Assembly: GCA_003231975.1 (NCBI GenBank)
Contig: QIKW01000166.1
Coordinates: 1-39,318, forward strand
From: Acidimicrobiia bacterium
Lineage (GTDB): Bacteria > Actinomycetota > Acidimicrobiia > Acidimicrobiales > SZUA-35
Length of the DNA stretch: 39,318 bases
Direction of reading: 5' to 3'
Position numbers and translations under genes: made by a program. Of the stretch, positions 15,156 through 35,699 are shown piece by piece; positions within the stretch are counted from its first letter, which is position 1; the number at the start of each line of letters is the position of its first letter. The notes beneath the pieces are model-generated. The model saw only the letters and a program-made list of their open reading frames with translations. It did not search any database and had not been told where the DNA came from.

Positions 15156-15929
15156 ATGGAACTGAGGCTCGACGAAAGAACGGCACTGATAACCGGAGGC
15201 TCCCGGGGAATCGGAAAGCAGATCGCAACTACTTTCGCCGAGGCCGGAGCCCAGGTCATGATTGTGTCCCGCAAGGCCGAGGTCCTAGAGCAGGCCGCGG
15301 CCGAAATCGATGCGGCGTCTGGCACAAAGGGCTGCCAGTGGATGGTTGGCAACACCGGCCATCCCGAGTCAGCCGAGCTGGTGGTAGCAGAAACCATCGA
15401 GCGGCTCGGAGCAGTTGACGTGCTTGTCAACAACGCCGCCACCAACCCGTACGCGGGCCCGATGATCGACGTTGACCTCCCGCGCTGGGACAAAACCATT
15501 GCAGTCAACCTCACCGGCCCGCTTCTCCTCACCCAGGCAGCTTGGCGAAGCTGGATGAAAGACAACGGCGGGGTTGTTCTGAACATCTCCTCTGTCGGTG
15601 GTTTGTCCACCAACGCCGTCCTCGGCGTTTATGACCTCACAAAGTCCGCTCTTATTCACATGACCCAGCAGCTTGGCGCCGAGCTTGGGCCGGGAGTGCG
15701 GGTCAACGCTATTTGCCCAGGCCTCGTCAAAACCGATTTCGCCCGCCTGCTGTGGGAGGGAGACCGGGGCGCCGAGGTTGCCGACGGATACCCACTGAAA
15801 CGCCTCGGCGAGGTGACAGACATTGCAAACGCTGCCCTTTACCTGGCTTCCGAAGCCGGCAGCTGGATCACAGGCCAGCATCTGGTGCTTGACGGCGGGG
15901 GGCTGGTTGCGTTCAACTCCCTTGGCTGA
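15156..15929 (+). CDS. SDR family oxidoreductase
   Basis: A 257-residue classical short-chain dehydrogenase. TGGSRGIG (13-20) binds the cofactor, NNAATNPYAG holds the NNAG-like motif, ISSVGG carries the catalytic serine, YDLTK the catalytic tyrosine and lysine, and NAICPGLVKTDFA follows as usual. The end (YLASEAGSWITGQHLVLDGG) is typical of FabG-like enzymes. The cofactor is probably NADP(H), given SRGIG and the following basic residue, but the substrate is unknown. GAGG at 15148-15151 precedes the ATG. It is divergent from the hydrolase gene, and repeat copy A lies 43 bp downstream. Confidence 0.87.
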   Translation: MELRLDERTALITGGSRGIGKQIATTFAEAGAQVMIVSRKAEVLEQAAAEIDAASGTKGCQWMVGNTGHPESAELVVAETIERLGAVDVLVNNAATNPYAGPMIDVDLPRWDKTIAVNLTGPLLLTQAAWRSWMKDNGGVVLNISSVGGLSTNAVLGVYDLTKSALIHMTQQLGAELGPGVRVNAICPGLVKTDFARLLWEGDRGAEVADGYPLKRLGEVTDIANAALYLASEAGSWITGQHLVLDGGGLVAFNSLG

Positions 15930-15971: not shown

Positions 15972-16084
15972 CCTAAGGAGCCTCGCGAATAGGAGGAGGA
16001 CTCGATTGGCTGATTCGCCTCGCTGACTCGGCGAACAACGAACTATCACATTGGTCGGTGCGCCTATCGGCGCTCCTCGTAAGG
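15972..16084 (+). repeat. Structured dispersed repeat, copy A (candidate ncRNA, 3' UTR element or MITE)
   Basis: This stretch is nearly the same as the minus strand of 34050-33941: about 85-90% identical by eye with one or two short gaps. Conserved hairpins are TTCGCC/GGCGAA (16014-16019 with 16030-16035) and GCGCC/GGCGC (16060-16064 with 16069-16073). A long-range stem pairs AGGAGGAG (15991-15998) with the segment at 16073-16080. One pair in it is G-C in copy B but A-T here, a compensating change. The 3' segment can instead pair with GGAGC at 15977-15981, also compensated. It lies after the SDR stop and ends 13 bp before the site-2 protease start. Confidence 0.7.
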
Positions 16085-16097
16085 CACACTGAACCGC

Positions 16098-17321
16098 GTG
16101 CGCGACTCACTTAGGCTCGGCCGGATCAGCGGCATCCCCATTGGGGTCAACTGGAGCATCATCGCCGTGGCGCTCTACCTGATGGGCTCGCTGGCCTACG
16201 TTGCGCTCCCCCGCTGGTTTCCAAGCGCGGAACTGAACGCCAGGCTGATCGTAAGCGCCGCGGCCACGCTCTTGTTCTTCGTTTCGATCCTGGGCCACGA
16301 ACTCGGCCACGCTTTCCTGGCTCGGCGTCACGGGGTCGGGGTTGACGGCATCACGCTGTGGCTGTTGGGAGGGATCGCCCGGCTCCGCAGCCAGGCTCCA
16401 ACCCCAGCAGCCGAATTCCAGATCGCCATCGCCGGGCCCGCGGTGAGCCTCCTTCTTGTGTTCGCCTTCGCCGGATCGTCATTGCTTTTCGACCGGTACA
16501 GCGCCTGGCCTCTGGCGGCGGCAGCTTTCGGATGGCTGGCGCTGGTGAACCTGTTGCTGGCGGTCAGCAACCTGGTGCCTGCTGCCCCGCTTGATGGGGG
16601 CCGAGTGTTGACGGCCATCCTCTGGAAGCGCAATGGGGACCCAGACCGATCGCGAGTTCTTTCAGCAAGGGCTGGCTTGATTTTGGGCGCCGCTCTCTTC
16701 TTCGGATTCATCGCCGGTTTCTTTCTCTCATCTCGGATTGCCATTTGGTGGGCGGTGCTAGGGGCAGGAACCGGCATTTTCCTGGCCCACGCTGCGGTCG
16801 GTGAGATCCGGAACGCCGTTGTGCGGGGCCGCCTCCGAGCCGCGTTGGCAGGCTCGGTGATGGCCAAGCATCCACCGCCGGTGCCAGACTCGCTAACCGC
16901 CCAGCAATTCTTGGATTGGACAGGCTCGAATGGGGGCCAGGTTGCCTGCCCGGTTGTGCGCTGGGATCAAGAACCGATCGGCTACATCGCACCCGCTCCA
17001 TTGAGAGCCCTCTCCGATTCCCAGCGGAGCTGGACCACAGTTACCGAGTTGATGACCCCCGCGCCAATGGTTGACCGGGCTTGGGTGAATGAGTCGGTGC
17101 AAGAGGTGCTTCAGCGGCTCGAGGTTGGCCGTCAAGAATTGGTTGTGCTTCACGACCCGACCAATGGGTCTCCGGTTGGCACAATAACCCGCTCTCAGAT
17201 TGAGCACTTGTTTGTGCCGCCAACCGTGTGGGGCACCGAGCGCAAGGCCCCACCAACGGCGGAAGTCGAAGGTCACCCAGCCGACCTTCGGGGACCAAGA
17301 GCGCTGAAACCGCTTGGCTAG
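16098..17321 (+). CDS. M50 site-2 protease family zinc metalloprotease with C-terminal CBS-like region
   Basis: A 407-residue intramembrane protease. HELGH (67-71) lies in a membrane segment with the zinc histidines and catalytic glutamate. NLVPAAPLDGGRVL (D166) supplies the third ligand. About six hydrophobic segments cover residues 18-235. The C-terminus (about 300-375) resembles a CBS domain (TELMTPAPMVDRAWVNESVQ, then TNGSPVGTITRSQIEHLF), as in Rip3-like actinobacterial enzymes. Members cut membrane-bound anti-sigma factors or similar regulators; no obvious substrate is adjacent. The GTG start follows CACACT by 7 nt. The AI-2E-type permease gene follows 18 bp later. Confidence 0.87.
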   Translation: MRDSLRLGRISGIPIGVNWSIIAVALYLMGSLAYVALPRWFPSAELNARLIVSAAATLLFFVSILGHELGHAFLARRHGVGVDGITLWLLGGIARLRSQAPTPAAEFQIAIAGPAVSLLLVFAFAGSSLLFDRYSAWPLAAAAFGWLALVNLLLAVSNLVPAAPLDGGRVLTAILWKRNGDPDRSRVLSARAGLILGAALFFGFIAGFFLSSRIAIWWAVLGAGTGIFLAHAAVGEIRNAVVRGRLRAALAGSVMAKHPPPVPDSLTAQQFLDWTGSNGGQVACPVVRWDQEPIGYIAPAPLRALSDSQRSWTTVTELMTPAPMVDRAWVNESVQEVLQRLEVGRQELVVLHDPTNGSPVGTITRSQIEHLFVPPTVWGTERKAPPTAEVEGHPADLRGPRALKPLG

Positions 17322-33041: not shown

Positions 33042-34051
33042 GTGAAACTCATCCCAGCTTCCACTTCGAGAAGTACCCGGCCCAGCGACTGGTGAAGGCC
33101 AAGGGCTCACGAACCGTTTCGGTTGTGTTGCCTGCCAGAAACGAGGCGCGAACCGTTGGCGCCATTGTGTCGGCTATCACCGATGAGCTGATGGGGGCTC
33201 AGCCAATTGTGGACGAGCTGATTGTGCTTGACGACAGCTCAACCGACGGCACGGCCGAGGTGGCAAGGAGAGCTGGCGCAACGGTGGTTGGCGCGGCCGA
33301 GGTTGCACCCGAACTGGAACTTGGCAACGGCAAGGGAGAAGCCTTGTGGAAGTCTCTGCTGGTCACCAAGGGAGACATCATCTGCTGGTGCGACGCCGAC
33401 GTAACAACGTTTTCACCCGGCTATGTGATGGGCCTGGTTGGGCCGCTTCTTGAAAACGAAGAGCTGGTGTTAACGAAGGGATGGTACGAACGCCCGGTCA
33501 GGGACGGGGCTGGAGGCCAGGCCGGACCGGCCGCTGTCAGCCGGGGCGGCCGGGTGACAGAACTCACAGCCCGGCCGCTGATTGCGTTGCTGGCTCCGCA
33601 CCTGGCCCACTTCGTTCAGCCGCTGTCTGGGGAGTTCGCGGCCGTTCGCCACGCAGTTGAGAACGTTCCCGTGCACCGGGCATACGCAGTTGACCTTGGC
33701 CTGCTGGTTGAGCTGTCGGAACGGTTTGGGGTTGACTCCATGGCCCAAGTTGACCTTGGTGTGCGCCGCCATTCCCGCCAGCAACTGCTGGCCCTGGGGA
33801 TCCAGGCCACAATGGTTGCTTCGATGATGCTGCGGACCGCCGGGATCAACCAGCCAGACCAGGTCAGCCTGCAACAACCGGGCGGCCTGGCAACCACCGT
33901 CAGTCTTGGCCAGCTTCCTTCTGTTGCCAGCTACCGGCTGCTAAGGAGGGGCGCCGACAGGCGCACCGACCAATGTGATAGTTTGTTGTTCGCCGAGCCA
34001 GCGAGGCGAACAAGCCAATCAAGTCCCCCTCCTAGTTCGCTAGGCCCCTAA
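33038..34051 (+). CDS. gpgS: Glucosyl-3-phosphoglycerate synthase-like GT-A glycosyltransferase
   Basis: A 337-residue GT-A enzyme resembling GpgS. SVVLPARNEARTVGAIVSAI and DELIVLDDSSTDGTAEVA bind the nucleotide sugar, GNGKGEALWKSL follows, and CDADVTTF supplies the metal-binding DxD. GGRVTELTARPLIALLAPHL and QPLSGEFAAVRHAVE match the acceptor region, and AQVDLGVRRHS ends the domain. GpgS makes glucosyl-3-phosphoglycerate, precursor of glucosylglycerate and methylglucose polysaccharides. Codons from about 302 lie inside repeat copy B, so the last 36 residues (RADRRTDQ-type, basic, unstructured) and the stop codon come from the repeat. The start overlaps the previous stop. Confidence 0.83.
   Translation: MSETHPSFHFEKYPAQRLVKAKGSRTVSVVLPARNEARTVGAIVSAITDELMGAQPIVDELIVLDDSSTDGTAEVARRAGATVVGAAEVAPELELGNGKGEALWKSLLVTKGDIICWCDADVTTFSPGYVMGLVGPLLENEELVLTKGWYERPVRDGAGGQAGPAAVSRGGRVTELTARPLIALLAPHLAHFVQPLSGEFAAVRHAVENVPVHRAYAVDLGLLVELSERFGVDSMAQVDLGVRRHSRQQLLALGIQATMVASMMLRTAGINQPDQVSLQQPGGLATTVSLGQLPSVASYRLLRRGADRRTDQCDSLLFAEPARRTSQSSPPPSSLGP
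33941..34050 (-). repeat. Structured dispersed repeat, copy B (opposite orientation to copy A)
   Basis: Read on the minus strand it matches copy A at about 85-90%. The hairpins are kept: TTCGCC/GGCGAA (33989-33994 with 34005-34010) and GCGCC/GGCGC (33951-33955 with 33960-33964). A CCTAG/CTAGG hairpin with a 4-nt loop (34031-34044) is clearer here than in copy A. The long stem is AGGAGGGG (33944-33951) with CCCCTCCT (34026-34033), a perfect 8 bp. GGGGC (33948-33952) can instead pair with GCCCC (34044-34048). On its own strand it begins at the stop codon of the acyl-CoA synthetase; on the other strand it forms the 3' end of gpgS. Confidence 0.7.
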
Positions 34052-35631
34052 GAGAATCGCTTTCGTAGATCCCGCTTCAGGATCTTGTTCGAGCCCGTCT
34101 TTGGGATCTCGTCGACAAACTCAACGCGGCGCGGCAGCTTGTATGAGGCTAGGTGCTCCCTGGCGTGAGCCTCCACCCCCGCCGCGTCAACCGAGGCTCC
34201 GTCTGCCACCACAACAACGGCCAGCACAGCCTCTCCCCACTGTTCGGAGGGAACACCAATAACTGCGGCTTCAAAGATGGCTTCGTGGAGCTCCAACGCA
34301 GCCTCGATCTCGGCGGGATAGATGTTCATGCCGCCGGAAATGATCATGTCGGTTTTGCGGTCGCAGATGAACAGGAAGCCTTCGTCGTCTCGGTAGGCAA
34401 TGTCGCCAACCGTGTGCCAGCCGCCGTCTTTGTGGTCGGCGGCGTACTTCTCTTCGGCCTTGTAGTAGGTGTCGAACACCGAAGTTGCCCGAACAAACAG
34501 CTCGCCCTGAGCCCCGGGCTCTGTTACCTCGTTCCCGTCAGGATCGAAGAGCGCAATGTCAACAAGAGGGGCAGGCTTGCCACAGGATCCAGGCTTTCGG
34601 AGCTGATCCTCTGGAGCCAACAGCGTGTTCACTCCCATCTCAGTTGAGCCGTAAACCTCCCACAGAGACTGGGGCGGGAAGTCCTTCACGTAAGCCTCTT
34701 TCAAGGCGAAAGGCCACGGAGCCGCGTTGGCAACCATCACCCGCATGCTCTTTGTGCTGTACTTCGCCTTGATTTCGGCGGCCAGGTTCACAACCATGCG
34801 AATAGGGGTTGGAGCCGAAAAGGTAGACGTGCACCCGTAGGTGTCGATCAGCCGCAGCCAATCTTCAGCTTCGAACTTGTGCTGAAGCACAACGGTGTGG
34901 CCAAGGGTGTGGGCAATGGCGGCAAACCCGCCGGGGCCAGAGTGATACAGCGGCCCGCACGTGATGTAGACGTCGTCTGGGGTGTACTTGAAGGCACCAA
35001 CCAGGGCCCTCAACTGATCGACACTGCCGGTGCGATCGCGCACCGCCCCTTTCGGGTTTCCAGTGGTGCCAGAGGTGTAGATCATGGTTGCCGCGCCTGC
35101 CTGGCCCCTGGTTGGCTCGTCGCCAGAGCCAAGGAAGGAGTCAATTGATGTTTGGTCTGCAAGCGGGTCTCCACCGAAGATCACCACGTTGGCCACGTCT
35201 GGTGTTTCGGGCCGGATCCGCTCCAACAACTGGGCGAACTCGGCGTCTGCGAACACCAGCACCGAGTCTGAGTTGTTGATCACATAGATTGACTCGGTGT
35301 CGCTTAGTCGATAGTTCAGGGGCACCGACACGGTTCCGGCCTTGCGGGCCGCATGGACGAACGCCCAAACCTCGATCGAGTTCTGGCCTAGCCACATCAC
35401 CTTCTGGCCAGGGTTGATGCCGCTGTTGATCAGGCCGTTCGCCAACTGGTTCACACAGGCGTTGAACTCGGCAAACGTCTGTTGCCGTTGGGGCTGACCC
35501 GGTCGGTCATCTATCACAGCCAGCTTGTTCGGCGCGGCATCCGCGTGGGCCGCAAGATAATCTGCCACCGGTTCGGGGGCCGAGGGTTCGGATGCCGAGG
35601 TTGCAGTAGCCGATGTAGCCCTGGATGCCAT
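34048..35631 (-). CDS. Acyl-CoA synthetase (AMP-dependent, ANL superfamily)
   Basis: A 527-residue adenylating enzyme. MIYTSGTTGNPKGAVR binds ATP phosphates, YGSTEMGVNTL and GDIAYRDDEGFLFICDRKTD bind the adenylate, and PKTGSNKILKRDLRKRF carries the catalytic C-terminal lysine. It activates a carboxylic acid, probably a fatty acid, as acyl-AMP and then acyl-CoA; chain length cannot be read. Residues 1-20 are Ala/Ser/Thr-rich and disordered. GGAG 8 nt upstream supports the ATG at 35631. The stop codon is the first base pairs of repeat copy B, and the last 4 bp overlap the convergent gpgS frame. Confidence 0.85.
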   Translation of the reverse strand: MASRATSATATSASEPSAPEPVADYLAAHADAAPNKLAVIDDRPGQPQRQQTFAEFNACVNQLANGLINSGINPGQKVMWLGQNSIEVWAFVHAARKAGTVSVPLNYRLSDTESIYVINNSDSVLVFADAEFAQLLERIRPETPDVANVVIFGGDPLADQTSIDSFLGSGDEPTRGQAGAATMIYTSGTTGNPKGAVRDRTGSVDQLRALVGAFKYTPDDVYITCGPLYHSGPGGFAAIAHTLGHTVVLQHKFEAEDWLRLIDTYGCTSTFSAPTPIRMVVNLAAEIKAKYSTKSMRVMVANAAPWPFALKEAYVKDFPPQSLWEVYGSTEMGVNTLLAPEDQLRKPGSCGKPAPLVDIALFDPDGNEVTEPGAQGELFVRATSVFDTYYKAEEKYAADHKDGGWHTVGDIAYRDDEGFLFICDRKTDMIISGGMNIYPAEIEAALELHEAIFEAAVIGVPSEQWGEAVLAVVVVADGASVDAAGVEAHAREHLASYKLPRRVEFVDEIPKTGSNKILKRDLRKRFS

Positions 35632-35699
35632 AGCGCAGTCTCCGCCATTGCGGCCGCGCAAGCAAACCAGACCGGCGTTCGACGTGTCGACCCTGTGCT

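Follow-up and report, generated by a model that had tools for sequence, protein, structure and literature searches.

The window, the whole stretch of 39,318 nucleotides that was analysed (positions 1–39318), contains two copies of a short element, each on the 3′ side of a gene. Copy A (15972–16084, + strand) is located between an SDR oxidoreductase gene (15156–15929, + strand; ORF with Pfam PF13561), whose 3′ end points toward it from 42 bp away, and a downstream M50 peptidase gene (16098–17321, + strand; PF02163). Copy B (approximately 34053–33940, − strand) lies directly 3′ of an AMP-binding (acyl-CoA synthetase) gene (34048–35661, − strand; PF00501/PF13193), the stop codon of which abuts it. 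The copies align nearly gap-free over about 110 bp, and their flanks were unalignable in pairwise comparison. A duplicated 110-bp element positioned 3′ of genes, as claimed in the first-pass annotation of this DNA, is thus real. In copy A, the body of 103 bp (15977–16079, + strand; from sequence, alignment, and assembly BLAST) is enclosed by the target-site duplication TAA, on the left within CTAAG (15974–15976, + strand; from sequence, its identity to the right-side TAA, and the central-base agreement test described below) and on the right within GTAAG (16080–16082, + strand; from sequence). Its left terminal inverted repeat is GGAGCCTCGCGAATAGG (15977–15993, + strand; copy alignment and inverted-repeat test), and its right terminal inverted repeat, with a degenerate tip, reads CGAGGAGCGCCGATAGG on the − strand (16063–16079; sequence, alignment, and inverted-repeat test). 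Copy A further has a central hairpin, TTCGCC...GGCGAA (16014–16035, + strand; copy alignment), and a right-end hairpin, GGTGCGCCTATCGGCGCTCC (16057–16076, + strand), which is the portion of the element that recurs in other genomes, as judged by pattern searches and pair counts. Copy B has a body of 104 bp (33945–34048, − strand; sequence, alignment, and assembly BLAST) between TTA duplications, the left one overlapping the acyl-CoA synthetase stop codon TAG at 34050–34048 (34049–34051, − strand; sequence and ORF) and the right one at 33942–33944 (− strand; sequence).

The first-pass annotation had called for a search for more copies, which returned at least 17 in the own genome and, in other Acidimicrobiia, relatives that agree in the ends and above all in the right one. 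In the own assembly (G000; 3.71 Mb, 275 contigs, 95.5% complete), BLAST identified 15 near-full and two internally deleted copies (C140 and C126) with unrelated flanks, and this number is a lower bound. The same whole-assembly search rules out a chance duplication of copies A and B. Identity between copies is 74–95% (median 86%), from which we infer that mobility may be past or currently low; the 17 aligned copies differ by up to 26%, and the family is therefore not very young. In nearly all copies the similarity is bounded by TNA within CTNAG. The element body of about 104 bp has the left end GGGGCCTAGCGAATAGG and the right end, read inward, GGAGGRGCGCCGATAGG; after TNA the tips read GGGG/CTCC in the G000 copies. 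Common to both ends are a GG tip and, about nine bases inward, the box GC.RATAGG, which together form imperfect repeats GGRG....GC.RATAGG. These terminal inverted repeats match at 11 of 20 positions in G000, which is weak (p = 0.036), and at 13–14 of 20 in G034, G168, and G033 (p from about 0.001 to 0.00025). The right end forms a local hairpin, GGTGCGCC-TATC-GGCGCNCC, and the mid-element hairpin TTCGCC...GGCGAA is precisely missing in C140, C126, and the G007 relative L022/L064. No conserved ORF was present in the element among the copies in G000. The right end (window positions 16070–16082 and equivalents) reads CACCTCC/CTCCTCC followed by TWAG, and the left part carries AGGAGG; we take the right end to resemble the anti-Shine-Dalgarno end of 16S rRNA, a likeness that is probably coincidental.

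Three lines of evidence indicate that the element has moved: a target duplication, orthologous sites that are unoccupied in relatives, and adjacent copies with a single TNA between them. The central base of CTNAG is equal at both ends in 18 of 27 copies versus 9.4 expected (permutation p = 0.0003), and in 11 of 14 versus 5.9 expected (p = 0.002) if only the own genome is considered; the 5-mers were picked out visually in the copy sequences, and the test left out copies without T at both first positions as well as L004, L014, and L017, which have unclear ends. About one third of the copies no longer have a matching TNA. Since the element starts with G and ends with C, the sequence is compatible with a duplication of either 3 or 5 bp. 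Adjacent head-to-tail copies have one TNA in common, as in an array of 83-bp units in G006 and on C11 of G168. The C35 copy is located where an aldehyde dehydrogenase gene, followed by a luciferase-like gene, has its stop codon, and the spacer between these two genes is continuous or unoccupied in G022, G001, G009, and G017 (site GTAAG or CTAAG); the relatives compared at this site and at that of copy A are of other genera or at best of the same genus (70–80% identity), so that loss at a single site is conceivable. In G022 one search alignment (78% over 552 bases) runs straight from one flank of the C35 copy into the other, and the flank ends are adjacent. The site reads CACTAAGGA in G022 and GCGTAAGT in G017, where the empty target is GTAAG, as opposed to CACGTAAG-element-CTCCTAAGC in G000. 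The SDR–M50 spacer that holds copy A is likewise conserved in G007, G016, G009, G015, and G022; in G007 and other relatives the insert is absent and the spacer length is otherwise similar, the matched flanks in G007 being about 82 bases apart, compared with 88 in G000 after subtraction of the element.

The location of the copies is biased. A gene 3′ end lies within 45 bp of 13 of the 16 assessable copies and within 20 bp of 12, as determined with Pfam-identified neighbours. At L003, L007, L010, and L013 the TAA duplication doubles as the stop codon, the stop TAG overlaps TTAG at L011 (copy B), and at L017 the element occupies the gap between two convergent stops. L004 and L016 are upstream of genes, in divergent promoter spacers, and both orientations relative to the neighbouring gene occur. 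Target preference and purifying selection, and not regulation, explain this bias. CTAAG and CTTAG often contain a TAA or TAG stop that the duplication rebuilds; copies that land at the 3′ end of a gene are thus neutral and persist, whereas insertion elsewhere in genes is harmful. Together, CTAAG and CTTAG occur 25 times in the window versus 54 expected from base composition, i.e., about half as often.

Relatives in other genomes have the ends in common and mostly not the middle. The right-end 23-mer, searched with up to three mismatches, matched in 10 of 39 family genomes and 17 of 397 order genomes, and the reversed pattern used as control gave counts of 0 or 1. Clear multi-copy families were present in G033 (20), G016 (8), G006 (5), and G007 (4), and about 28 right-end matches occurred in G168, which represents another family of the order; it is in these five genomes that the relatives agree in their ends and mostly not in between. 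In some genomes a lone right-end match looks coding and probably arose by chance. An exact 20-mer was recovered from GTDB contigs in one Acidimicrobiales MAG and, as a single match, in a Rhodobacteraceae MAG, the latter of which looks like chance, and searches of plasmid and phage collections gave no match. The left and right boxes vary jointly from genome to genome, with GATAGG in G168 and, at either end alike, GGTAGG in G033 and AGTAGG in G034; this joint change is the behaviour to be expected of putative cognate transposase ends.

At L116 (G033:C195:6584–6785), five or more right-end hairpins (GGTCGGTGAGCCTGACGGCGCACCTCC and TCATACCG) form a tandem array with a 35-bp unit just upstream of a panC-like ORF, where one end was amplified without the rest of the element. 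L160 (G006:C76:63224–63416) consists of three 83-bp relatives arranged head-to-tail with a single TTAG per junction. The G034 relatives (L155, L161, L171) have an almost perfect palindrome at the right end, TTAGGACGTGCGC...GCGCACGTCCTAA, with a second, internal CTTAG, and one G034 copy lies in the loop between the arms (acaacaagc/gcttgttg) of an inverted repeat that flanks it. L251 (G168:C257:1388–1431) is a minimal element of 44 bp with overlapping left and right ends and TTA on both sides.

Taken together, the element is very probably a MITE, a kind of non-autonomous DNA transposon, that is about 104 bp long and inserts into CTNAG with duplication of TNA. It lies below the limit of about 600 bp usual for MITEs, has no coding capacity, and occurs in several dispersed copies (at least 17); it has terminal inverted repeats, weak in G000, and a target-site duplication, and its C|TNA|G (or 3-bp) target with duplication is that of PHIS/IS5-like elements. 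Of the options raised in the first-pass annotation, a mobile MITE is therefore the one borne out, given the number of copies, the inverted repeats at their ends, the duplicated TNA, and the orthologous sites that are empty in relatives. The family is apparently undescribed in the class Acidimicrobiia, although the kind of element is ordinary; no published MITE in Acidimicrobiia was found in the open literature searched. We infer the class of the mobilizing enzyme: a DDE transposase whose gene lies elsewhere and which most likely belongs to the IS5/PIF-Harbinger (PHIS) type would act in trans, bind the GC.RATAGG boxes, excise or copy the element, and then join it at C|TNA|G, whereby the central TNA would be duplicated and the stop codon rebuilt. 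Pfam profile searches with DDE models of the IS4/IS5 type gave no match to PF01609 and PF13340 in the own MAG and none to PF13359 in the 39 family genomes. No transposase with the element's ends was found and no end pair flanked a transposase gene; two ends spaced 0.7–3 kb apart, as in an autonomous element, did not occur in G168, G022, G033, G034, and G006, and ORFs beside solitary ends were housekeeping genes or of unknown function. Metagenome assemblies often drop multi-copy insertion sequences, and the missing transposase is thus weak evidence. A Tn3-type TIME, suggested by the GGGG start and the possible 5-bp reading, was rejected, as the target is fixed as CTNAG and there is no 38-bp repeat. 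A wider version of the transposon reading is rather unlikely, namely that the copies belong to an Acidimicrobiia-wide MITE superfamily that is mobilized by an undescribed bacterial DDE transposase with NuwaII-like C|TNA|G specificity, in effect targets stop codons, and is retained at many genes as a 3′ UTR hairpin.

Location alone cannot identify the family, because REP repeats also sit at gene 3′ ends and can supply the stop codon (PMC3733652). One rival reading is a REP/REPIN-type repeat, in which a pair of inverted hairpin repeats encloses a spacer, found 3′ of genes and spread by a tyrosine transposase (RAYT). This stop-codon-adjacent location, the size of about 110 bp with hairpin ends, the stand-alone right-end copies and tandem arrays, and GTAGG at both ends in G033 would agree with such an origin, but Y1_Tnp (PF01797) is absent from the copy-bearing genomes G000, G006, G033, and G034, the G000 ends are ATAGG boxes inside the element and not a terminal GTAG tag, and the observed target is CTNAG with a duplicated TNA. 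G000 thus has neither the GTAG tip tag nor the RAYT gene, and we regard a REP/REPIN origin as improbable.

Still less probable is a regulatory RNA or switch that is transcribed within 3′ UTRs and was spread and retained for function as a terminator, stabiliser, or rival-pairing switch. Beyond the proximity of 13 of 16 assessable copies to gene 3′ ends, it could draw on conserved hairpins, two pairs in which both partners changed, and a covariation score higher than in shuffles. The first-pass annotation had described a paired change in an AGGAGG[A/G]G stem, and the A/G with T/C difference between copies A and B is real, but the pair is broken in five of the 17 copies (A-T 7, G-C 5) and other variable pairs of the stem break without compensation (e.g., A-T 12, T-T 5). 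Pair counts over the 17 copies gave one covarying pair for this stem versus 1.2 in shuffles; the covariation score was modestly high (reached by 17 of 500 shuffles), which subfamily structure alone can produce. Of two hairpins held to be invariant, both are strongly conserved, but TTCGCC/GGCGAA is the one cleanly missing from two copies. Across the local hairpins (TTCGCC/GGCGAA and GGTGCGCC/GGCGCNCC), 94% of cells are kept and the covariation score is above all 500 shuffles, but both partners changed in only three cells, and the shuffle control is inflated by related copies; hairpin DNA at transposon ends would be conserved too. Folding z-scores of three copies were −0.56 (copy A, no better than shuffles), −2.2, and −2.95. 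Rfam had no match in the window or in five relatives, and copies A and B have no intrinsic terminator with a U-tract and no terminator-like or promoter-like site. The presence of copies in either orientation to the neighbouring gene and in spacers with divergent promoters (L004, L016), together with the empty sites in relatives, also argues against a regulatory RNA, and the switch, terminator, and small-RNA options are unsupported. An integron attC-like or other site-specific recombination unit, brought to mind by imperfect palindromes of about 110 bp and head-to-tail arrays with a common junction, can be set aside with near certainty, given that attC sites carry a RYYYAAC/GTTRRRY core that the element ends lack and that the copies occur singly, scattered among unrelated housekeeping genes, and not in cassette arrays.

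The MITE reading gives ends, target, and distribution to a repeat family that appears not to have been described, from a class that has been little studied, and accounts for its 3′-end bias without invoking regulation. The logic of a stop codon within the target means that repeats can gather neutrally at gene ends, which is a caution against taking conserved 3′ hairpins for regulators. The 23-base right end is a ready tag for finding the missing transposase.

Among known systems, the enterobacterial small mobile sequences RU-1, RU-2, and RU-3 are dispersed intergenic repeats of 103–168 bp (PMC2759123); the likeness is one of size and intergenic dispersal, and the phylum differs. REP/REPIN are alike as hairpin repeats at gene 3′ ends, even to the supply of the stop codon (PMC3733652), but the present element has a TNA duplication and terminal inverted repeats, and it has no GTAG tip and no RAYT in G000. 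IS5-family insertion sequences (IS427/IS1031 groups) and their MITEs have comparable short inverted repeats (13–21 bp) and short duplications (2–4 bp; PMC3281130), with a 3-nt site in ISLxx6 (PMC2516522); they differ in that the own MAG has no IS5-type transposase, and the element's ends have here been assigned to no named IS. NuwaII elements of the PHIS (PIF/Harbinger, IS5-like) superfamily are eukaryotic and defined by their transposase, whereas the present element is bacterial and none was found for it, but the two agree in the C|TNA|G target, the TNA duplication with its ambiguity between 3 and 5 bp, and the terminal inverted repeats (PMC4482050).
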